Source: Aureispira sp. CCB-QB1 (GTDB lineage: Bacteria > Bacteroidota > Bacteroidia > Chitinophagales > Saprospiraceae). Taken from it: a DNA stretch of 40,429 nt. The stretch spans positions 1 to 40,429 of the forward strand of contig CAMBRK010000038.1 of NCBI GenBank assembly GCA_945870185.1, in the 5' to 3' direction. Under the pieces are notes generated by a model that was given only the letters and a program-made list of their open reading frames with translations, ran no database searches and was not told the origin of the DNA. The translations under genes were made by a program, and so were the position numbers. Position 1 is the first letter of the stretch. The number at the start of each line of letters is the position of its first letter. This document shows positions 2,607 through 27,388 of this stretch, in pieces.

Positions 2607-3755
2607 ATGTCTATATTAAAATCAAAAATTAAAAATGGTGTTCAAATCATACCATTTATCATAGCATCATTGTTGATGTCAATTGTTATTATCTCTTGTG
2701 GTGGATGTAAGGGGGCTAAGGTGGTCACACAAGCTAGTTCAAATCCACAGAATGAGCATAGTAGTGACAATAATGAAAAAAAAGACCTACAAAATTCTCA
2801 GACAATAAAACAATATCCTTACACAGAAAACAATACTATTTATATAAATGATACAACAAAAATAATTGGTGGAATAAAAATCGTTACAACACGAAATACT
2901 TCCAAATTGGTCTTTCCAAATGGAAAAGTATTATATAATGACTCTAATGATATGCCTATTTTAAAAAATTTGCCAAATTCGAACTATGATTATGGATATA
3001 GTCAAGGCAAAAAAAATTTTGGATTTTATGATTTTTCTAATATTAGTATTGATAAAAAAAGAAAGCTCTTTTCAAATATGAATGGTTATAATCCTAACAA
3101 AGTAAAAGAAATAAACAAGGCTAGGTTTAGTTGTCAAATATACGGGTTACATGAGTTAGATGAAAGGATATATAGGGTTCTAAGTATGAAAATATTTCAG
3201 GAAGATAAAGATTCTGATAGGCAACTATCAGTGATTGGCAACATTGGCTTTTTGGAAATATACAACAGAAACGGTGATCTGCTTTATGAAATTAAATTAG
3301 ATAAATTTGGTGGGGACAACTTATGTATTACTCCTGATAATAAACATATTGTTCTAAACACCATCGGAGATGAAGGGAGCGATTATTATATGGTAAGCAA
3401 AGGAGCAACAACAATTTGGAGTTATGAAAATCCTAAACTACTTGATATTGTATATCATATTGAAAATAGTTATGGTACTAGGAGTTTTGAATGTTTTAAC
3501 AATCACATTCTATTTCAATCTAATTTAAATAATACTGATTCCATTTTTGCTATGAATATTCTTTTAGATAAAAAGACAGTTTCTACTTTATCTTATCATC
3601 GTACTAAAATCGCAAATTATAAGATTGTACATGATGGATCATTTATTTTCGAGGATGGAACCAAGTACAATAAAGGCTCATCTGGTTTTAGTCAATATAT
3701 CATTGAAGATTGGAACGAATATGTTGAAAATTCATCAAAAGAAAAAGATAAATAA
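2607..3755 (+). CDS. Putative lipoprotein, unknown function
   Basis: A 382-residue protein with a hydrophobic N-terminal segment (about residues 13-30) ending in a lipobox-like IIS-C31, so a lipid-anchored protein is likely. Residues 35-65 are a low-complexity, Asn/Ser/Lys-rich linker. The rest has strands with repeated NGDLLYEI- and TPDNKHIV-like patterns, reminiscent of WD/beta-propeller folds, but no blade motif is clear enough to name. The giant M23-type gene starts 47 nt downstream on the same strand, so the two may be co-transcribed. No function can be assigned. Confidence 0.65.
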   Translation: MSILKSKIKNGVQIIPFIIASLLMSIVIISCGGCKGAKVVTQASSNPQNEHSSDNNEKKDLQNSQTIKQYPYTENNTIYINDTTKIIGGIKIVTTRNTSKLVFPNGKVLYNDSNDMPILKNLPNSNYDYGYSQGKKNFGFYDFSNISIDKKRKLFSNMNGYNPNKVKEINKARFSCQIYGLHELDERIYRVLSMKIFQEDKDSDRQLSVIGNIGFLEIYNRNGDLLYEIKLDKFGGDNLCITPDNKHIVLNTIGDEGSDYYMVSKGATTIWSYENPKLLDIVYHIENSYGTRSFECFNNHILFQSNLNNTDSIFAMNILLDKKTVSTLSYHRTKIANYKIVHDGSFIFEDGTKYNKGSSGFSQYIIEDWNEYVENSSKEKDK

Positions 3756-3802: not shown

Positions 3803-4378
3803 ATGAAGTATAAAATAATGGTTGCCATAATAATGGCGACAATGTATTGTTATGCACAAAACGATTTGGTAAGATATAGACCATGTTCATCAGGGTGTGA
3901 ACCAGATGATTATGGTGATATAACTGAATTTAAAACTCAAGATGTGATTTCTGACTATGGAGTTAGAAATGCTGATGGAGGAACTAGGTTTCACCAAGCT
4001 ATTGATTATACAGTTTATGACATTGAAGATATGGGTTATTCCATAGTCGCGGTTAAAGAAGGGACGGTCTCTGATATAAATGGTGACGATTCATATAAAG
4101 GCATTACTGTCGGAAATTATAGGTATACTCATATTTTTGATAGTTATTTAGTAAATGATGAGACTTTTTATAAAAGTGGTAAATTTCTACTTAAGAAAGT
4201 TAAACCAGTCTCTGGTAAAAATACGTGGTGGGCTATAGTAGATTTGGAGCATTGTAGAGCATTTTGTGAAGAAAGTGGACGGATTGTTGAAATAAGTGGA
4301 TATTGCAATAATTCTATTTCAACGGACAATTGGGTAAATGAAGGTTGGGATATAGCCCCAATAGGTGGGTCTGGATGA
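3803..4378 (+). CDS. M23-type peptidase N-terminal part, cut by an in-frame TGA
   Basis: 191 residues with a signal peptide (MKYKIMVAIIMATMYCYA, then Q). The M23/LytM first zinc motif HxxxD is present as H64-QAI-D68 in RFHQAIDY. Later strands (SIVAVKEGTVSDING, YRYTHIF) fit the fold. The frame ends in TGA at 4376-4378. Without that stop the same frame continues Y-P-T-H-L-H-L-E, which is exactly the M23 closing motif G-x-PHLHFE, and then runs through the next ORF to 11752. Alone, this product lacks the HxH needed for catalysis. It is best read as the 5' part of one gene of about 2650 codons. The stop could be a nonsense mutation (TGG or GGA to TGA), a sequence error or a read-through site. Confidence 0.8.
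   Translation: MKYKIMVAIIMATMYCYAQNDLVRYRPCSSGCEPDDYGDITEFKTQDVISDYGVRNADGGTRFHQAIDYTVYDIEDMGYSIVAVKEGTVSDINGDDSYKGITVGNYRYTHIFDSYLVNDETFYKSGKFLLKKVKPVSGKNTWWAIVDLEHCRAFCEESGRIVEISGYCNNSISTDNWVNEGWDIAPIGGSG
4376..4378 (+). other. In-frame TGA interrupting the M23-T9SS giant gene
   Basis: Codons around the stop are ata-ggt-ggg-tct-gga-TGA-tac-cct-aca-cat-ttg-cat-tta-gaa, i.e. IGGSG-stop-YPTHLHLE. The upstream and downstream ORFs are in the same frame with no other stop between them. TGA is an ordinary stop in this window (it ends genes at 2332, 12918 and 15068), so wholesale codon reassignment is excluded. I see no convincing SECIS-like stem directly downstream. Confidence 0.85.
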
Positions 4379-4390
4379 TACCCTACACAT

Positions 4391-7300
4391 TTGCATTTAG
4401 AAAGGAGAAACAGTGGTAAGAAGCATGATCCAAATCAAAATGTCAATCACAAAAGCCAGGATTTTCAAATAGAGTTAAAAATAAATAATAAGACTGATGT
4501 AATATTAAAGTACCCGGGTACAATTAGAAATGCAATAAGATTAAGAGCAACTATGAAGGATGGAATACCTGTTGGAAGTGATAGATTTTCTAATGTCACT
4601 ATGAATCTGGATAAAGCTGACATTTTGCTTCAAAGACAGGGCAGCGATGATTATGAGCATATTATAGGTTATGAAGGGTCTGGGGATGAAAAGACTAAGA
4701 TTGAGTCCAAACTTTGGCTTGGTGCCAATTTTAATACTTCAATTATTCCATCAAACTGGAATTCTAGGCCTTTTGGAAGTTGGACCCAAACTGGAACATA
4801 TCCCTATGCTCATAGTAGTCCAGATAAAATTTATGACGATTATTTTTTCTCTGATTTTTATACCCGAATTGATAAAACTGATTTTAAAAAACTGACTGAT
4901 CTACCTACAAATGCGAGGTATAATGATGGTAAATATAAGTTGAAGCCAACAGTCACAAACGTAAGAGATGAGTTATTTACTATACCAGCAATTAATTTTT
5001 CCTTAGACAATTTCAAACCATACATTTCATTTTTTAACGTAAAAACCAATGGATCTCCAATTTATCAGTTGAATAGAACAGGAAGTGAAGGGGATGAAAA
5101 AACCACTGATGATGGTACTGTCTCCAATGAAGCACAAAAATATGCACTAAAAATAGTAGAAGATGGTCCAAATACCTTGAGCATAGAGATCACGACTTCA
5201 GAACCTATGCAAAACTTACAATTTGCCCATAAAAAGGAAACACAAACTGCGTTTTCCCCACCAGCCCCTATGATTCCAAATGGAAGCAATAAGCTCAAAT
5301 GGTCTGGGAATATCAGTACTACTTTTTCTCAGGGCGATTGTTTTAATGTACAGTTTTTTGGGCAAGATTTATCTACAAATCAAATTTTGGGTATTCACAA
5401 AAACACAAATAAAAATAAAGCAGGAATTTCAGTAAAAATACCTACTCGAAAAGGAAATGGCCCTAATGATTGGAATAATAAGCCAACCAATAGTGGCATG
5501 GACCAAATCGATTTTTGCATAGAAGGCTGTACCAAGCGGTTACTATCCGACAATACTGGTAATAGAAACTCATCAGACTGCGAATCCCTCAGCGAAGTCT
5601 CATCTTCCATCAATTACATTTCTTGCAAAAATGCAGAGATCACTATCGAAGGTACTGGATTTGTACCTGGTAACTTTACTATTACTTGGACAGATGGTTC
5701 AGGTAATTCATTGCCGCAATATCAAGATGACGCCCAAATAAACGTATTCAATGCGGGCACTTATTGCTACAAAATAGAAGCTGTAGACGATTGCTGTGAG
5801 ATGGAAGGATGTGTGGATGTTATTGCTGAGGAATTGTTGAAACAAGACTTCAATCTAGATATTTTTAAAAATACAGAATGCAACAAAGAAACTGTAATGA
5901 TTTGGGATTCAAAATCCGAGTATAATTATAAGTGGTCAAATAGCTCTAATCAAGCTAATGTGCATACAGTGACCAGCCCTGGAGAATATTCGGTAACAAT
6001 AACCAACAAGATAAGCGGATGTCAACAAATTGAAACATTCGAGTTTCTAGACCATCAGTTTTCACTGGATGGCACCGTGACACAACCGTCCTGCAATGAA
6101 GCTGGTATGATAGATCTTTCAGTAATTCAAAATGATGGGAGCTTAGAATTAAGGTATTTATGGTCTGATGGTAGCAGAGAAGAAGATCGATATGAACTCG
6201 CTCCAGGGCAATATTGTGTGACGGTAACGAATGGTGATCAATCCACTCAAAACAATAGTCTTAGCTGTAAGCAGACAAAGTGTTTTGAAATATATACTAC
6301 ACCTTTTTATGTAAATGTTCTTTTAAATCAAACCAGCTGTAATGGACTGCCTGAATCCTTGATTTTAAAAGCAAATATGAATAATGGTCAAATAGGGACA
6401 TTTAAGTATTTGTGGGATAATGGAACTACAACAGCTGAAAATACGGTAACTCAAGCAGGTGAATATTGTTACACTGTCACTGACGTAAACACAGGTGCGT
6501 GTGTCATGGGGTGCTACAATGTTCGAAGCATAAGTTTAGTTAAAATCACTACGAGTACTTATCCAATATGTACCGAGTTTACAGGTAAAATAAATACAAT
6601 TATAACTAATGGGTCGCCCCCCTTTACATTTAAATGGAGCAATGGTGCAACAACTCAGAATGTTGTAGGACTAACTTCTGGTACCTATACTGTTACTGTT
6701 TCAGATGACAGTAATTGTACAGCAACTGCAGTATCAACTATAGAGTTAATGAATTTGGAAGCCAATATAAATTTTTATGAAATACCAATTTCTTGTGCAC
6801 AAAGAGAAATTAGATTTTCAAATAATTTTATTACAACTTTTCCTAATGCGAATCAACATATCTTGCCCTTAACATACAAATGGAGTACAGGTGAAACTGG
6901 TATTGCAGCTATTGTAACCAAATCAGGGGAATACTGCTTGACTATTACAACAGCTAATAATTGCACCTTTAGTAAATGTATTAATGTATCTTTAGAGCCG
7001 CAAATCTCTTTCAATGTCACTCAAAACACCAACTGTCCAAATCCACCTGGTAATGGAGTGATAAATGTAAATGCCACTGGCGGTACACCACCATACCAGT
7101 ATTCTTTTAATCCCGGACCACAAAATACAAGCAATCCTTCACTGACTGGTTTAGTGCCAGGAAGCTACAATGTGGTAGTGAGTGATGTAAATGGATGCAA
7201 AAGTTCAAAATATGTGCAAATTGAGCATAGTAATGGTTTAAATCTTACAGTTGAAACAAATGATCCATGTGCTGGCTCTAATACTGGTCAAGTGAAAATA

Positions 7301-10300
7301 AAATTGAAATGGGAATCTTTTCTAATGAATTTGTACCAAGTAGATAACAATGGTAACAGAGTTTTGTATTTTTCACAATATTATTTTACAGATATTATTG
7401 TTGTAAAAGACTTACCTGTAGGAAGTTATTTTGTAGAGGTGACAGATCTAAATAATTGCGATTATGGGTATAAGACTTTTGAAATAAAACAAAGTAACAA
7501 GCCCAGTATAAATAGTCTGGATGGAGCTGTCCAATGTGTCGTTCTTAAGGATGGTCAAGTTATAAAAAAAGGTACCATATCTATTAGTTTTAAGGGCGGA
7601 GTTTCTCCTTTTAGCTATAAGTGGAGTTCTGGGCAAACCACGCAAAATATTCAGGTAGAAAGTGCAGGTACATACACAGTATCTATTACGGATAGGAATG
7701 GTTGTTATGATAGTAAATCCTTTAATGTAAGCTCGACAGAAAATAATTTGATCGTTACTGGGGGTGGTATAGATAACCCTAATGGTTGTAGTTCATGGAT
7801 AGATAATCTTAATACAGGAATAAATATAATTAATGGAAATCCACCATACAATATCAAAATTGGTGGCTCTGGTGGGATTCCATTGACAGAATTGTATAAA
7901 CATGAAATTATGAGTAATCAAAACGGAGTTTTGCTTTTACCAGGGTTTATAAAAACACCACAATTCTATTATTGGAATAGTTTTACTTCTGAAATTGAAG
8001 TCACTGATGCCTGCGGATTGAAAACCTATTTAAATAAAGCAGTTGTATGTGAAGACTTTTGTGATTTCAATTGTGTAAAAATTTCTTTAGAAGCAACTGG
8101 AATTACTGGCTGTGCAAAAGTTATAAGTTCGGCAGCCGTTGGGTGGGTGGTTGGTTCTAAATTTGAAGTAAAATCCACATGCAATAGCAATGAAATAGAA
8201 GTTTATAATACAGTACAAAATGAATATATAACCATAAATGGCGGAGGGACGGAAAGATTCCTTAACGAATTATTTTATGATGGCTGGTATCATTTCAGAA
8301 TTACTAATAAAACTACAGGCTGTGTCAAAAATGAATGGATCAAAACAAAAGCATGTAAGAGTTTTGCCAAATGGTTTTTTAATTCAGGTGGGTCACCAAG
8401 TACTGGTGGCTCCGGGCCATCTTCTTGTGAATCAGGAGATTGGCAATTTAAAGGTAATGATGCTGAGAAATGTGAAAAAGTATATTATTGCGAAAAAAAT
8501 GGCTCTGAAAAAAGTGAGAAAGTTTCCTTGAAAAAATGTTCTGATATGTGTTGGGATAAAAACAACAAAAAATTCTTTATTAATTATGAAATTTGCCCAC
8601 TTGATAATTTATGTGAGCATCGTAAAAAAATTTCAGAATCTACTAATCAAGAACATCCATTATGTCCATGTAATCTTAAAGCATGCCCAATATTCCGTCC
8701 GTCTTTTGATCCACCAACATGTGCGGATATTGTAAAATGTGTTGTTGCTGATTCTATAAATGATAATTATATAATGTTTTGGAATGACTATGACAGCCTG
8801 AACCAAAAGGTATTGAAAGGATATTTCTTTAAAGATTCGGCGTATCCTACCGATTTTGGTCCATTCTCCAAAATAAATACATCATTAGACATTGAGCAGG
8901 TAAAGACGGATAAAGATTACAATCATTACATTTTGGGAAAAAATGGTAATTATTATTTCGAAAAACGATCAATAGATAATCAATTCTTATGGTCTGTAAA
9001 CCTTTCAAATATAAATGTAAAGGGTTTATCATCAAATAAATCTGGTGATTTTGATTTAACTGGCTTTGATATGAGTAATAACAATGTTTTGGTCAATGTT
9101 AAAATTGATCAAAATGGTAATGTGTTGTCTCAAGTTCCTGTTACCAATATTTCAGGATTTTTTGATAAAACTATTCAGGAGGACGGCATTTTTTACTCTT
9201 TAAAAAAGTCATCTAATGAAATGTATATTATTTCTCCAAATAACTTAATAACTAAACAAATACCTTCCAATATTATAATAAAGGACATTAATATAAATGG
9301 TAATAATATTATTGTTGCTGGTGAATTTAATGGTCAAACCACTTTGGCCGGAAAGAATATAAATACAAATTCATATACAAATATAATATTTTTGACATAT
9401 GATAAGCTAGGTAATCTTCTAAAAGCAAAGGTTGCATTAAAACCAAATAATATGTCAGTAGATGGTTTTGAAATGAAAGATCCTTCAGATATTACATTTT
9501 ATGGTAAAATTGAAACCATTTCATATGGACCTACTACGGAAGAAAATATTATAGATTCCTGCACATATATTTATTTATTTTCATTGGAAGAAGATGATTG
9601 CCCATCCTTCACATCCACCCTCACATCTCACCGCACCCCTTGCCAGCTCACCTGGAACGATCCACCTACCGGATATACCTCAGAGCTGCAGTGGAACGAA
9701 AATGGCATCTGGATTGAAGTATCAAGCATCGGCTTGGTAGCTCCGGGATATACATCGCCGTTCACGGTGCTGAAAGATGGAACTTACAGACTTATCCACA
9801 AAAAAGAAGGATGCCCTGATGTCGTATCTAATAGTGTGTCCACCACATGTTATGGCATATGTGTGTGTCCTGCACCAGTACTTTCGTACGACAATCAGGC
9901 ATGTCATCTCACATGGTCTACTGTAGAATGTCCTGGATACACAGCCAGATTACAACGTCAAAATGCAAACGGCTGGGATGATATAGCATTGACAGCTGCA
10001 TCACCTTACACCGTTACAGCTGCAGGCATATATCGTGTGTTGCTCACAAAACCTGGATGTAGCCAAGTACTCAGCAATGTAGTCACCACTACAGCTTGTA
10101 CACCTAATACCAATCCATGTACCTGTACCACAGCTTCACAGCTGACATTAAATACATCAGCTTGTAGTCTCAGCTGGAACACACCATCGTGCAGTGGATA
10201 CACCAGCACACTACAGCGATTTGTAGCGGGTGCATGGACAACCATTAATAGCACCAACCCATACGCCATCCCAGCCAACAATAATGGTCAGTACAGAATA

Positions 10301-11752
10301 CTCACATCGAAGCCAGGATGCGGTGACTTAGTATCCAATGTAGTGACGGCCAGCTGTAGTTGTAGCTCACCAGCAAGCATCACCGTATTTAATAGTACAT
10401 ACGGTCTAGGCCAAAATGTAAATCTGCAAAAATCGCAAACATACATGCACAATGTCACATCAGGCCATCCTAATGTATGCGACGACCAGTTTATAGAGCT
10501 TCGTTTTGATGCCAATGTTGTGAATAGCGATTGGAATATCTCAGGAACCGTAGGTATCTTACCAGCCACAATAATCAATGGTTACTTCACCTTTACTGTG
10601 ATCTTACCAGATCCGCCATCATCAGGCTATGGTGATGTATGGTTACAGAGTCCATGTGGTGATTTTTATACATTGAGATTGGTGTATGATTGTACATCAG
10701 GATGTGTGCCAATCAATGTTAATGTTTTAGGTAATGTAAATAACAGTTGTGAAAATCTTACGGTAAATGCTTCAGGGGGCACAGCACCTAATACTTATCA
10801 AATCAGCGGTGATGGAAGTCTAGGAACAGATATCAATCAAAATGGAAGTAGCAATATCATCAATTTATCATCATTACAAAATGGTGAATCGATCACGCTT
10901 TCAATTACAGTTACTGATGTGAATGGGTGTACAGGAACCAGTCAAGTGCTTTACACTAAATGTTCGAATGGATGTTCTGGAAATATATGCAATAATACAA
11001 CACCTGAATGTAACGATGTTTTAGGTAGTACAGATGGTTATAATCAAAATGCAATAATTAATTTCATAGTTCCTTCAGGAGTTACTCAGGTAACTTTAAA
11101 ATTTAATCCTCAACCAGTACCGCAGTCATATATTGTTAAACATAATAGCACAAATATAATTAATGTTGGAAATATTTATACTTCCTTTGAAACAGATCCA
11201 GATTCTCTTAACCCATGTCAAAACCAAGGTAGAAATATAATAGTACCTTCACAGTTGGATGATACTGGTTTGACTGCTCAAGGTAGTTGGGCTACTAATT
11301 CAATTTCTGTGAACCAAGGAGACTTAATTACTATTATTATTAATCATCCTAGCTGTTGCGGAGTAAGTTGGTGGAATCTTCAAATTCTTTGTGGTGGATC
11401 AGGTAGCAGACCTAGTACTGATAATAATTTGATAAATATCGGAAATCATTTACAAGATGCAGAAAATGAAAATTTATCAAATACATTCCAATTAAATGAT
11501 CTTATCCGCTTCTACCCCAATCCATTCTCCAAAGGCATCAATATGGAGTTTACAGCTCCACAATCTGATGTGATGAAAATGGAAGTGTACAACCAAGTAG
11601 GTATCCAGGTATTTACCAAGACCATAGACTTGATGCAAGGTATCAATTTAAGGTACATTGACGAATTTGAAAATATGCCAACTGGCGTGTATACTGTAAA
11701 AATGAGAGGTACTCAATCAGAACACCATACACGAGTGATCAAGATAGAGTAA
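4391..11752 (+). CDS. Giant T9SS-secreted adhesin-like protein with SprB/PKD repeats (continuation of the M23 gene)
   Basis: 2453 residues counted from a TTG at 4391, which is unlikely to be a true start: the frame is open back to 4379, and no signal peptide follows although the protein ends in a T9SS type A sorting domain (about residues 2370-2453, FYPNPFSKGINMEF to the end). The first residues are the M23 HLHLE motif. Residues ~400-1115 hold about nine Ig/PKD/SprB-like repeats (for example GSPPFTFKWSNG near 741 and GGTPPYQYSFNPG near 897). Residues ~1380-1450 are Cys-rich and ~1450-1735 propeller-like. Residues ~1738-1995 are three tandem LTW...Y repeats. Known roles of such proteins are surface adhesion, gliding or cell-wall work; the role here is inferred. 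Confidence 0.8.
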   Translation: MHLERRNSGKKHDPNQNVNHKSQDFQIELKINNKTDVILKYPGTIRNAIRLRATMKDGIPVGSDRFSNVTMNLDKADILLQRQGSDDYEHIIGYEGSGDEKTKIESKLWLGANFNTSIIPSNWNSRPFGSWTQTGTYPYAHSSPDKIYDDYFFSDFYTRIDKTDFKKLTDLPTNARYNDGKYKLKPTVTNVRDELFTIPAINFSLDNFKPYISFFNVKTNGSPIYQLNRTGSEGDEKTTDDGTVSNEAQKYALKIVEDGPNTLSIEITTSEPMQNLQFAHKKETQTAFSPPAPMIPNGSNKLKWSGNISTTFSQGDCFNVQFFGQDLSTNQILGIHKNTNKNKAGISVKIPTRKGNGPNDWNNKPTNSGMDQIDFCIEGCTKRLLSDNTGNRNSSDCESLSEVSSSINYISCKNAEITIEGTGFVPGNFTITWTDGSGNSLPQYQDDAQINVFNAGTYCYKIEAVDDCCEMEGCVDVIAEELLKQDFNLDIFKNTECNKETVMIWDSKSEYNYKWSNSSNQANVHTVTSPGEYSVTITNKISGCQQIETFEFLDHQFSLDGTVTQPSCNEAGMIDLSVIQNDGSLELRYLWSDGSREEDRYELAPGQYCVTVTNGDQSTQNNSLSCKQTKCFEIYTTPFYVNVLLNQTSCNGLPESLILKANMNNGQIGTFKYLWDNGTTTAENTVTQAGEYCYTVTDVNTGACVMGCYNVRSISLVKITTSTYPICTEFTGKINTIITNGSPPFTFKWSNGATTQNVVGLTSGTYTVTVSDDSNCTATAVSTIELMNLEANINFYEIPISCAQREIRFSNNFITTFPNANQHILPLTYKWSTGETGIAAIVTKSGEYCLTITTANNCTFSKCINVSLEPQISFNVTQNTNCPNPPGNGVINVNATGGTPPYQYSFNPGPQNTSNPSLTGLVPGSYNVVVSDVNGCKSSKYVQIEHSNGLNLTVETNDPCAGSNTGQVKIKLKWESFLMNLYQVDNNGNRVLYFSQYYFTDIIVVKDLPVGSYFVEVTDLNNCDYGYKTFEIKQSNKPSINSLDGAVQCVVLKDGQVIKKGTISISFKGGVSPFSYKWSSGQTTQNIQVESAGTYTVSITDRNGCYDSKSFNVSSTENNLIVTGGGIDNPNGCSSWIDNLNTGINIINGNPPYNIKIGGSGGIPLTELYKHEIMSNQNGVLLLPGFIKTPQFYYWNSFTSEIEVTDACGLKTYLNKAVVCEDFCDFNCVKISLEATGITGCAKVISSAAVGWVVGSKFEVKSTCNSNEIEVYNTVQNEYITINGGGTERFLNELFYDGWYHFRITNKTTGCVKNEWIKTKACKSFAKWFFNSGGSPSTGGSGPSSCESGDWQFKGNDAEKCEKVYYCEKNGSEKSEKVSLKKCSDMCWDKNNKKFFINYEICPLDNLCEHRKKISESTNQEHPLCPCNLKACPIFRPSFDPPTCADIVKCVVADSINDNYIMFWNDYDSLNQKVLKGYFFKDSAYPTDFGPFSKINTSLDIEQVKTDKDYNHYILGKNGNYYFEKRSIDNQFLWSVNLSNINVKGLSSNKSGDFDLTGFDMSNNNVLVNVKIDQNGNVLSQVPVTNISGFFDKTIQEDGIFYSLKKSSNEMYIISPNNLITKQIPSNIIIKDININGNNIIVAGEFNGQTTLAGKNINTNSYTNIIFLTYDKLGNLLKAKVALKPNNMSVDGFEMKDPSDITFYGKIETISYGPTTEENIIDSCTYIYLFSLEEDDCPSFTSTLTSHRTPCQLTWNDPPTGYTSELQWNENGIWIEVSSIGLVAPGYTSPFTVLKDGTYRLIHKKEGCPDVVSNSVSTTCYGICVCPAPVLSYDNQACHLTWSTVECPGYTARLQRQNANGWDDIALTAASPYTVTAAGIYRVLLTKPGCSQVLSNVVTTTACTPNTNPCTCTTASQLTLNTSACSLSWNTPSCSGYTSTLQRFVAGAWTTINSTNPYAIPANNNGQYRILTSKPGCGDLVSNVVTASCSCSSPASITVFNSTYGLGQNVNLQKSQTYMHNVTSGHPNVCDDQFIELRFDANVVNSDWNISGTVGILPATIINGYFTFTVILPDPPSSGYGDVWLQSPCGDFYTLRLVYDCTSGCVPINVNVLGNVNNSCENLTVNASGGTAPNTYQISGDGSLGTDINQNGSSNIINLSSLQNGESITLSITVTDVNGCTGTSQVLYTKCSNGCSGNICNNTTPECNDVLGSTDGYNQNAIINFIVPSGVTQVTLKFNPQPVPQSYIVKHNSTNIINVGNIYTSFETDPDSLNPCQNQGRNIIVPSQLDDTGLTAQGSWATNSISVNQGDLITIIINHPSCCGVSWWNLQILCGGSGSRPSTDNNLINIGNHLQDAENENLSNTFQLNDLIRFYPNPFSKGINMEFTAPQSDVMKMEVYNQVGIQVFTKTIDLMQGINLRYIDEFENMPTGVYTVKMRGTQSEHHTRVIKIE
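9600..10370 (+). repeat. Three tandem ~80-codon protein repeats of higher GC within the giant gene
   Basis: Three units share the pattern C-x-L-T/S-W, a short spacer, GYT(S/A)xLQ(R/W), a W, a P(F/Y)xV/I segment, Y-R-(I/V/L), KxGC and VSN-V/S. They start near 9636, 9896 and 10150. The DNA is visibly richer in C/G and in CAC/ACC codons than the AT-rich sequence on either side, and long minus-strand shadow frames appear here. This suggests a module acquired or amplified separately from the rest of the gene. Confidence 0.7.
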
Positions 11753-23137: not shown

Positions 23138-26100
23138 ATGAAATTGTTTCCGCTTCTTAAATGCTTTTATTTTATGATGATTTTCTGCTTCAATAGTGAA
23201 ATACTGTGGAGTCAAACAATGCTGAAATACAACGGCAATGGCGAAAATAATCTTCCGGAATGGGCAGTAGAAATGTATAAAGACAATCCTGACTTGGGGT
23301 TAGTGATCGATAAGTATGAACAATATTACTCGGTAAATCCATTTGTAAAAAATAAACATACGCAATATTATAAGAGATTGATCAGAGAAATATCAAGAGA
23401 ACAAAAAAGAACATCTAATGAAGATAGGCAATATTTGAGCTTGATTTCAAAAAACCAATCATCAAGAACTATAAATATGTCCAATTGGCAGTGTTTGGGT
23501 CCTTTTGATTGGGACCATAGTGCCGCAGGAAGAAGTTATGCCCCAGGTTCTGCTCATGTTTATACAGTAGAACAGTCAATCTCAAATCCCAATGTCATAT
23601 ACGCAGGTACGGCTACCGCTGGCCTTTGGAGAAGTTCCAATAAAGGAATTTCATGGACTGCCCTGACAAATAACGCATTGATTTCTACTGTCTATGCTAT
23701 AGAGATTGATCATACTAATGAAAACGTTATTTATGCTTCGATGTTTAATTCGATTTATAAATCTACCAATGGAGGTACCACATTTCAGCCCACTGGCAAT
23801 AGTACATTTCAAGCTATATCATTAGATACCAGAGATATCCGCATGTTACCTTCTAATAATAATACGGTCTTTGCTTGTACAAGCAATGCCCTTTACAGAA
23901 CCATTGACGGAGGAACTACTTGGACCAATGTGGTTTCTGGAGATTTTCAGGAGGTCGAAATACATCCTACAAATAACAATGTAATCTATGCTGTAAAAAA
24001 GTCTGGAACTGCAACGCAGTTTTTTAAGTCTACCAATGGTGGTTCTAGTTTTACACAAATCATAAATGGATGGCCTGTACCGCCTGCTAATGGAAATCAA
24101 GAAAGAACCGAAATTTCTGTGTCGCCACACAATCCCAATTACGTTTTTGCACATTGCTCAGGATTAGCCAATGGTGGTAGCGGACTTTATGGAGTATACG
24201 TAAGCTCTGACCAAGGTCAATCATGGACATTCAGATGTTGTGGACCTCAGCCTGCTGGACCTCCTTCACTTTCCAACCCTAATCTTATGGGATGGAGTGA
24301 TGATGGTACAGATGATGGCGGACAATATTACTATGATATGGGTTTTGCTGTATCACCGACTAATAGCGATTCCATCTTTTTGGCAGGTGTAAATTTATGG
24401 GTTTCAAGTAATGGTGGCACTTCATTTACTTGTCCAGCCAAATGGTCTCATCCTCACAAAGCCAATTATGTGCATGCCGATATCCACGACATTAACTATT
24501 ACAACCATACAAGAGAATTGTGGATAGCATGCGATGGTGGAATTTTTTATTCCAATAATAATGGCTCAAGTTTCCAAAGAAGAAATATTGGTATTTTTGG
24601 TACAGATTTTTGGGGTTTTGGACAAGGATGGTGGTACGGAGATGTAATGTTAGGCGGAGCTTATCACAATGGAACATTACTCAAAGAAGAAAATGTTTAT
24701 CAAAATGACTGGCTATGTACAGATGGAGGTGACGGAACTTTAGGTTTTGTAAATCCAGGCCTAGATCGTCAGGTTTATAGCTGGTTTGACATTAAGAAAC
24801 TAAAATCAAACCGAACAGTAAGTCCTGAAACGAGAGCATTTGATTTCAAACCTAATAACACATACATCACAGGACAATCCAATGACTTACTTATTCACCC
24901 AGCATATTATGGTCATTGGTTGACAGGATACCAAACAAAACTTTACCAAACCAAAGATAATGGCTATACATTTACTGAGATATCTGACTTTGGGGCAAAT
25001 ATAGCTTCAGCAGCCCAAAGCTGGTCAAATCCAAACGTTCTTTATGCATGTACGTTTCCTGGATGGTGGAGTACAAAACGTATATTCAGATCCGTCAATG
25101 CTGGTGTAAACTGGGTAGAAATTACGCCTACTTCTGCACAATTGAATGGTAATATATGGATACCCTATGATATTGTAGTAGATCATGATGATCCTATGAA
25201 AATCTGGATTGTAAGAACATCTATGTATGATAGTAATATCAATGGATTTGCTGTATATCACTCTACTAACGGAGGTGATAACTGGCAAAATATAAGTGGT
25301 ACAGGATTAAATGGCCATTCACCTACCAGTTGTTATTTACAAAAAGGGACCAATGGTGGGCTTTATATTGGCACAAGGCGAGGAGTTTTTTATAAAAACA
25401 GTACTATGCCAGAATGGATACTATATAACACTGGATTACCTACTCTTACTCATAGTACAAGAATGGAAGGGTTTTACAGAAAACAAAAACTAAGAAATGC
25501 AACTACCAGGTCTGTTTGGGAAACAGATTTTTATGAAAATAGTACCCCTAAAGCATATCCATCTGCTCAAACGGATAAGATATTTTGCTCGAGAGACACC
25601 ATCTATTTCGTGGATCATTCTGTAGTAACAGATCAAAACGTAAGTTGGTCATGGTCATTTCCTGGAGGTACCCCAGCATCATCTAACCTAAGAAATCCTA
25701 AAGTCATCTATCCTGCATCAGGCAGTTATGATGTGACATTGACAGTAAGTGATATCCATGGTAGTTCTACCAAAACGATCCAAAATATGATCTTAGTGGA
25801 AAATCAATGTGCTCCCGAAACTATCGCTGGCAAATCTCTATTGGCAAGTGGAACCAATAAACATGGAAGCGTTCCCAACGCCAACCTTACTAATGTGAAC
25901 ACACTTACAGTTACCGCATGGGTAAAACCTAATGGTATTCAACCAGACTATAGTGCTATTTTCATGGGAGATGGAACAAATGCTGCTGGATTTAACTTCA
26001 AAGATGGTACCAACAAATTGGCATATCATTGGCCAGGTGGTCAGTGGTTTTGGAATAGTAATATCAATGTACCCCAAGATGAATGGAGTTTTGTAGCCAT

Positions 26101-27388
26101 GGTGGTTCAGCCTACTGGTATTACTTTATATTGTAATGGTATGCAAGCAACTCACAATTTCACATTACAAGCAACAGATATACCCGCATTCCGTATCGGA
26201 AGTTATAGAAACTGGGAAAGTAGAAATATGAATGGCATGATAGATGAAGTAGCAATTTATAACAGAGCACTTTCCACTAACGAACTGAGAGAGTTGAGAC
26301 ATCTTTGCAAAAAGCCTTCAGATGATGCTACACTGATTGCCTATTACCAATTTAATTCGAATAATGTAAATGACTTTGATAAAGTAGGTACCAGACATAT
26401 TTTCATGACCAACAATGCTGAAAAAGTGATTTCATCAGCCCCAGTAGGCGGTGGTAAATCTCAAAGAATCAATGTTACTTCAGGTGGTTTAAAAGATTTC
26501 GCAATGGCTGGATGTAAAATTTATTTTCCGCCTTCTGGTATTTATGCAAATGGTGATATGGTAGTTACTAGATTGGACAACCGACCCTTTAATCAACCTA
26601 ATGTAACCATTTCTACCAATAAATATTGGCTCATCAATAATTATGGTACCAATACCAATTTTACAAGACCTGATAGTATAAGATTTTATGATTCAGGAAA
26701 TATATCAGGTGGATGCCAAACTTCAGGATATGTACTGCAAAAAAGAAATCAGAATGAATTTCTTAACAATTGGAGTTACGGAGGTGAAGCAATTTATTAT
26801 AATGCTTATAACAACCCACCTTACATAACTTTAGGAAATAATACCATTACCACATCTGGTCAATTTTTCATGACACTCGAACCAAGAACAGTGGGAAATC
26901 CGCAGGAAATCTGCAATGGTATAGATGATGACTGCGATGGTTTGGTGGATGAAGTTTACAGTTTGAACGTAACCAATAACAATGACAGTGGTCCAAATAC
27001 ATTAAGAGCAATCATGAATTGTGCTCAACCTAATGAAGTGATCACTATAGACGCGAGTATAGACACAATAACCCTTGTAGCACCTCTTCTGATATCCAAA
27101 AACATTAGCATAATCGATCAAAACGGTGCCAAAGTGGTCATCAAATCAAATCTCAATCTTCCTGGTTTTAATGTGTCGAATGGTGCGATTGTACTTAACT
27201 CAAATTACAATATTAGTTTTGAAAATATTGAATTTTACCAAAACAATAATACATATAACAAACCAATGATTTATAATAACGCCAATCTTTCGATGACCAA
27301 TTGTATCATGAAAGGACAGCCAGATTCCATCATAAGAAATGAAACAGGCAGTGTGTTAACAGTAAATGGAACTGTATTTATTGAGTAA
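23138..27388 (+). CDS. Giant secreted VPS10/BNR-PKD-LamG-MopE protein without T9SS tail
   Basis: 1416 residues with signal peptide MKLFPLLKCFYFMMIFCFNSE-ILWSQ. Residues ~115-790 are sortilin/VPS10-type BNR propeller repeats (many STNGGTTF and S-N-GS-SF Asp-box-like motifs). Residues ~805-890 are a PKD domain, ~895-1060 a LamG/concanavalin-like domain (TAWVKP to DEVAIYNRAL), and ~1255-1272 a MopE-type motif ICNGIDDDCDGLVDE that would bind Ca. The rest looks like a right-handed beta-helix ending VNGTVFIE. The layout is typical T9SS cargo, yet there is no C-terminal sorting domain, and a convergent gene ends 10 nt later. It may bind sugars or proteins outside the cell. It starts 33 nt after the cytochrome gene; co-transcription is possible. 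Confidence 0.85.
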   Translation: MKLFPLLKCFYFMMIFCFNSEILWSQTMLKYNGNGENNLPEWAVEMYKDNPDLGLVIDKYEQYYSVNPFVKNKHTQYYKRLIREISREQKRTSNEDRQYLSLISKNQSSRTINMSNWQCLGPFDWDHSAAGRSYAPGSAHVYTVEQSISNPNVIYAGTATAGLWRSSNKGISWTALTNNALISTVYAIEIDHTNENVIYASMFNSIYKSTNGGTTFQPTGNSTFQAISLDTRDIRMLPSNNNTVFACTSNALYRTIDGGTTWTNVVSGDFQEVEIHPTNNNVIYAVKKSGTATQFFKSTNGGSSFTQIINGWPVPPANGNQERTEISVSPHNPNYVFAHCSGLANGGSGLYGVYVSSDQGQSWTFRCCGPQPAGPPSLSNPNLMGWSDDGTDDGGQYYYDMGFAVSPTNSDSIFLAGVNLWVSSNGGTSFTCPAKWSHPHKANYVHADIHDINYYNHTRELWIACDGGIFYSNNNGSSFQRRNIGIFGTDFWGFGQGWWYGDVMLGGAYHNGTLLKEENVYQNDWLCTDGGDGTLGFVNPGLDRQVYSWFDIKKLKSNRTVSPETRAFDFKPNNTYITGQSNDLLIHPAYYGHWLTGYQTKLYQTKDNGYTFTEISDFGANIASAAQSWSNPNVLYACTFPGWWSTKRIFRSVNAGVNWVEITPTSAQLNGNIWIPYDIVVDHDDPMKIWIVRTSMYDSNINGFAVYHSTNGGDNWQNISGTGLNGHSPTSCYLQKGTNGGLYIGTRRGVFYKNSTMPEWILYNTGLPTLTHSTRMEGFYRKQKLRNATTRSVWETDFYENSTPKAYPSAQTDKIFCSRDTIYFVDHSVVTDQNVSWSWSFPGGTPASSNLRNPKVIYPASGSYDVTLTVSDIHGSSTKTIQNMILVENQCAPETIAGKSLLASGTNKHGSVPNANLTNVNTLTVTAWVKPNGIQPDYSAIFMGDGTNAAGFNFKDGTNKLAYHWPGGQWFWNSNINVPQDEWSFVAMVVQPTGITLYCNGMQATHNFTLQATDIPAFRIGSYRNWESRNMNGMIDEVAIYNRALSTNELRELRHLCKKPSDDATLIAYYQFNSNNVNDFDKVGTRHIFMTNNAEKVISSAPVGGGKSQRINVTSGGLKDFAMAGCKIYFPPSGIYANGDMVVTRLDNRPFNQPNVTISTNKYWLINNYGTNTNFTRPDSIRFYDSGNISGGCQTSGYVLQKRNQNEFLNNWSYGGEAIYYNAYNNPPYITLGNNTITTSGQFFMTLEPRTVGNPQEICNGIDDDCDGLVDEVYSLNVTNNNDSGPNTLRAIMNCAQPNEVITIDASIDTITLVAPLLISKNISIIDQNGAKVVIKSNLNLPGFNVSNGAIVLNSNYNISFENIEFYQNNNTYNKPMIYNNANLSMTNCIMKGQPDSIIRNETGSVLTVNGTVFIE

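Follow-up and report, generated by a model that had tools for sequence, protein, structure and literature searches.

M23 (LytM/lysostaphin-type) peptidases, the T9SS-exported SprB-type adhesins of Bacteroidota, programmed UGA recoding, and ordinary nonsense pseudogenes or draft-genome false stops are the described systems closest to the locus presented here. The window (the whole stretch of 40,429 nucleotides analysed, from Aureispira sp. CCB-QB1) contains a gene that shares features with each of them. Like the SprB-type adhesins, it has SprB repeats, a T9SS tail, and giant size, but it differs by its N-terminal M23 domain and by a tail that lies behind a stop codon. From other M23 peptidases it is set apart by a Pfam score below the cut-off, an in-frame stop, and fusion to a T9SS-tailed giant. 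With programmed UGA recoding (selenocysteine, suppressor, or tryptophan read-through) it shares a UGA that lies in frame inside a catalytic domain under conservation, whereas the machinery and conservation needed for recoding were not found. As in ordinary nonsense pseudogenes and draft false stops, the lesion is single and isolated, the gene is accessory, and the relatives are unbroken. Unlike ordinary nonsense pseudogenes, the gene has no further decay yet.

PMC10193787 mentions Saprospiraceae, M23, and type IX secretion; among the papers searched, none mentions all four of SprB, peptidoglycan, M23, and type IX secretion. For UGA decoding, the accessible portion of PMC5373646 describes a ribosome signal beyond stop codons in E. 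coli K-12, UGA above all, and an RF2 in this strain that is a weak form with Thr at one position. According to the portion of PMC13092985 at hand, a disrupted top pair of the tRNA-Trp anticodon stem promotes UGA reading.

The split gene occupies one reading frame, from ATG 3803 to the TGA at 4376-4378, and the frame is then open again to a TAA ending at 11752. The sequence-only reading had described two ORFs in one frame parted by this TGA alone, and the frame agrees with it: the post-stop part comprises 2457 codons from 4379, with no other stop or frame break. Its description of the zinc motifs holds as well, since H64 and D68 of HxxxD precede the TGA, and H196 (the fourth codon after the TGA) and H198 of HxH follow it. 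The second ORF begins at 4391 with a TTG, 12 bases behind the TGA, which is a mechanical ORF start only. The first in-frame ATG after the TGA is 58 codons on, beyond the HxH. The base after the TGA is T, and the site is outside any homopolymer.

Same-frame splits with both runs of at least 150 codons occur 14 times in a control sample of 440,429 bases (window included, 9% of the genome). Twelve have an ATG at most 7 codons from the stop and were counted as adjacent genes on that ground alone. In another, the ATG follows after 47 codons, and Pfam assigns the two runs to different genes (a weak EI24 and EamA). The window TGA is the sole split of the 14 shown to lie inside one protein.

Table: Parts of the split gene and its upstream neighbour (positions in the window).
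Feature	Position	Strand	Remark
Partner gene directly upstream of the split gene: exported, lipoprotein-like, 382 aa, probably beta-propeller	2607..3755	+	
N-terminal part, 191 aa: signal-like start and first M23 half (H64, D68)	3803..4378	+	
TGA in frame with the M23 domain, within a loop that varies in length and lies shortly before HxH	4376..4378	+	
Rest of the M23 domain with HxH (H196, H198)	4379..4450	+	fold match reaches residue 216
Ig-like beta domain, residues about 220-396	4451..4990	+	AF2 and VIA-align rows; conserved across family alignments
Long stalk with SprB repeats	4991..11512	+	PF13573 E 1.9e-14, 4 stretches
T9SS type A C-terminal sorting domain and true frame end	11513..11752	+	TIGR04183

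Both sides of the TGA form one M23 fold of the LytM type with all four expected ligands, so that HxxxD and HxH are both present provided that the frame is read past the TGA. In the family alignment, H64 is kept in 14 of 15 rows, and D68, H196, and H198 in 15 of 15 each. The Pfam M23 model PF01551 gives 22.8 bits and does not reach its gathering cut-off of 28.7; 4 of 15 family members match it at E<=0.01. The domain is thus a divergent M23 member by fold and ligands, not by the Pfam cut-off. For the M23 model, Foldseek by itself found nothing significant. Its top row, a neurotoxin binding domain (E 0.04, probability 0.10), is non-significant, and we treat it as a shared beta arrangement, not kinship. 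A single-sequence search of PDB sequences returned two chance-level matches only (best E 0.3).

The N-terminal part opens with a signal-peptide-like helix. The sorting domain at residues 2379-2455 of the post-stop part scores 27.9 bits with TIGR04183, against a cut-off of 23, and 24.4 bits with PF18962, below its cut-off of 27. The gene therefore has a sorting domain, but its signal-like start is parted from the tail by the TGA. The earlier view of a signal-bearing first part and a T9SS-tailed second part, neither making sense alone, is correct as to architecture, with the M23 domain itself cut in two. In relatives (e.g., L029, L032-L034, L036) the signal-like start and the tail share one frame. 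The tail is over a cut-off in 9 of the 13 giants tested, window included, and no tail over the cut-off was found in those of L030, L031 (= L081), L082, and L086. SprA is present in the window genome.

The split gene belongs to a conserved two-gene unit of Saprospiraceae and their neighbours, in which an exported, probably propeller-fold protein is followed by an M23-Ig giant. The fast-evolving upstream gene lies directly before the M23 giants both in the window and at L078-L091; its profile has no match under E 0.02 among PDB sequences. The giants often have SprB repeats and a T9SS tail, and the unit is sometimes in tandem with short copies. The M23-Ig giant may hydrolyse peptidoglycan at the surface, and its dedicated partner may act as a restrainer, an immunity protein, or a chaperone. 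The first zinc-ligand His of HxxxD is replaced by Asn at L088 and L033, which are on the same contig, with the frame unbroken.

A search with a 396-residue query finds matches in 12 of 396 genomes of the order at E<=0.001, the own genome included, and among the 15 rows from this search only the window row has a stop inside. Twelve homologous ORFs align over the site and have no stop between the zinc motifs; the TGA interrupts a loop that differs in length among them and links GxSG to HLHL. A 13-row profile, with at most 4 candidates scored per genome, matches 127 of 398 genomes of the family at E<=0.001, most of the matches being short, apparently ordinary M23 genes. Twenty matches cover at least 380 of the 431 profile positions: 18 are stop-free, and the remaining two are the window copy with the TGA and the G514 copy with a TAA. 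In this comparison with relatives, of the kind that the sequence-only reading had proposed, none of the 19 matches besides the window copy has a stop at the window site. Named relatives of the gene are Saprospiraceae, Lewinellaceae, and other Bacteroidota records; a single-sequence scan of genome contigs gave no match. The nearest homologue in the tree is 31% identical, and the window copy has no settled position among the 17 rows of this tree. A search of nine genus mates gave no match to either half of the gene, which makes it an accessory gene whose loss is tolerable.

Lesions of other kinds recur in the family. Stops lie inside 14 profile rows, namely those of the window, the G514 copy, three short remnants, a piece of 33 positions in G251, and eight weak matches with E from 5e-5 to 6e-4 (G540, G423, G604, G419, G427, G554, G239, G382). 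In G514 the in-frame TAA is at the signal peptide, beside a T-run, and because a nearby ATG sits in another frame the copy has a frame break there. In the three remnants (an upstream copy in G020, and one each in G493 and G571) a stop interrupts the frame before HxxxD is reached. The reading frame of the G020 copy shifts near 7941-8002 of L039, on a contig with a stated coverage of 3.7. Short family copies occur in G258 and G437. The breaks in members or remnants, both frame breaks and in-frame stops, lie in L039 near 4362-4820 as well as near 7941-8002, in L134 near 2677-2703, and in L068 and L069. Lesions thus recur but not at the window site, as decay or draft-assembly error predicts and a conserved recoding signal does not. 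The remnants with stops are consistent with decay and leave the odds between the explanations unchanged.

Of single substitutions in 4379-11749, 3.6% would create a stop (transitions weighted). The chance of finding no further lesion is down to 0.05 at 22 neutral substitutions (0.3%) with indels at an assumed 0.1 per substitution, and reaches 0.05 at 83 neutral substitutions (1.1%) without indels. The lack of a further lesion indicates that the change is very young, that it is absent from the cells, or that the downstream part is still selected. Conserved columns are kept in 20 of 22 cases before the TGA and in 27 of 36 (0.75) after it; the latter value is the second lowest of the 15 rows and inside their range of 0.71-1.0. 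Many degenerating mutations downstream had been named earlier as the mark of plain pseudogene decay. None was found in the 2457 codons, which excludes plain old decay and leaves a young lesion possible.

In the 440,429-base sample, 29 of the 174 open runs with 300 codons or more end in TGA (runs unchecked as genes). RF2 is present (464.8 bits) and has Ala where the weak K-12 variant has Thr, the place being counted back from GGQ. The own prfB (L122, C84) keeps a CTT-TGA site behind AGGAGG, which we take to be the autoregulatory +1 frameshift site. No UCA anticodon is present among 33 tRNA matches, each read by ARAGORN, with 150 of 318 candidates scored; expected tRNAs such as Ile-GAT and Ala-TGC are missing from this list, which is therefore incomplete. 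A suppressor tRNA and a UGA-reading code like tables 4/25 are rejected, as RF2 is kept, the 33 tRNA matches include no UCA anticodon, and only one proven intragenic UGA split occurs in 440 kb.

A selenoprotein is likewise rejected. SelA has no match in the own genome. With 150 of 201 candidates scored, tRNA-Sec gives nine weak matches, none of them over the cut-off, and ARAGORN reads the eight that have loci as Ser, Leu, Trp, or Tyr tRNAs. There is no stem-loop behind the UGA, as stretches of 55 and 85 bases fold worse than the shuffle mean (z +0.6 to +1.6). The tRNA-Trp (CCA) has an unbroken anticodon stem of five pairs with a G-U wobble at the top. ARAGORN read 24 tRNA-Trp in 30 loci of the own and related genomes; 10, including those of the own genome and of six genus mates, have exactly the same stem, and the top pair is G-U in 15. 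The G-U-topped stem is thus common among relatives and not special to the window genome. Read-through by a tRNA-Trp with a 4-bp anticodon stem, as in the available part of PMC13092985, is rejected for this five-pair stem; stem lengths in that paper come from tRNAscan-SE and ours from ARAGORN.

What is observed is a stop that splits the M23 domain in intact surroundings, with no stop at this place in the relatives. Since the full-length relatives are stop-free at the site, they point to an error in the sequence or an inactivation of recent date and not to a special decoding signal. Two of the three options given by the sequence-only reading, nonsense mutation and sequence error, accordingly stand, while its third, read-through, found no support. 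The explanation that we prefer, at about even chances, is a real and recent isolated nonsense change that inactivates the gene of a secreted, T9SS-exported M23 peptidase-adhesin. The gene would code for one such protein, and a single change in the window genome, or in the strain dominating the assembly, would stop translation within the M23 domain. The exported product would be short, lack a surface anchor, have only half of the zinc site, and for these reasons be inactive. On this view the base would be real and translation would end at the TGA; the change would be recent because nothing else is broken in the codons downstream. A consensus or assembly error, or the base of a minority strain, with the gene intact in most cells, is a serious possibility that we hold at somewhat less than even. 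It would look identical to a real stop in assembled sequence, and the difference is a lone one of substitution type in an otherwise undamaged gene of more than 2600 codons. The genome is a draft of 168 contigs, and if the per-base error is taken to be 1e-5 to 1e-6, its 4.9 Mb would contain about 0.2 to 2 false stops. The G020 break at low coverage and the G514 break beside a T-run make draft-assembly damage plausible in this family. In contrast, the TGA is in no homopolymer, and the 440-kb sample has no other proven split, so the assembly is not generally error-ridden. Nor does the assembly contain a variant contig or second copy: none was found by DNA search (40 of 50 candidates scored), and the profile finds an ordinary M23 gene only (24 bits).

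Low-level UGA read-through, yielding much inactive short product and little full-length surface peptidase, is improbable. The undamaged downstream frame is compatible with it, since the lesion-free state also fits continued selection, and so are the K-12 signal past stops and the wobble at the stem top. However, the TGA is not conserved in the family, the tRNA-Trp stem keeps its five pairs and is shared with relatives, RF2 has Ala, and neither an RNA structure after the stop nor SelA nor a tRNA-Sec over the cut-off was found. The next base is also unfavourable, as T after UGA is a strong termination context in E. coli. Slimmer still is the chance that a leaky UGA doses a dangerous surface peptidoglycan hydrolase, made mostly as a short exported half-domain and rarely at full length, with the upstream propeller-like partner as its restrainer. 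We give very little credence to two halves made separately, functioning jointly or independently, in which translation of the second begins at an internal codon. The TTG so close behind the TGA would allow such a start, but the first in-frame ATG comes after the HxH, none of the long family matches has this design, and a restart product without a signal peptide should not reach the T9SS. The stop itself is most likely ordinary, marking a copy of an accessory gene that is either broken or misread. The family itself may be what is worth keeping, and the idea of a hydrolase with its partner is testable on unbroken relatives.

A second large surface-type protein of 1416 aa (Laminin_G_3, PKD) is encoded at 23138-27388 of the window, 11 kb downstream, and is preceded by SCO1/SenC and cytochrome c genes. 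Elsewhere in the genome, on the minus strand of C151:1-3000 (L127), a 462-aa frame lies close to a 240-aa GGQ release-factor-like frame; we take the two to be RtcB-like and PrfH-like, respectively.
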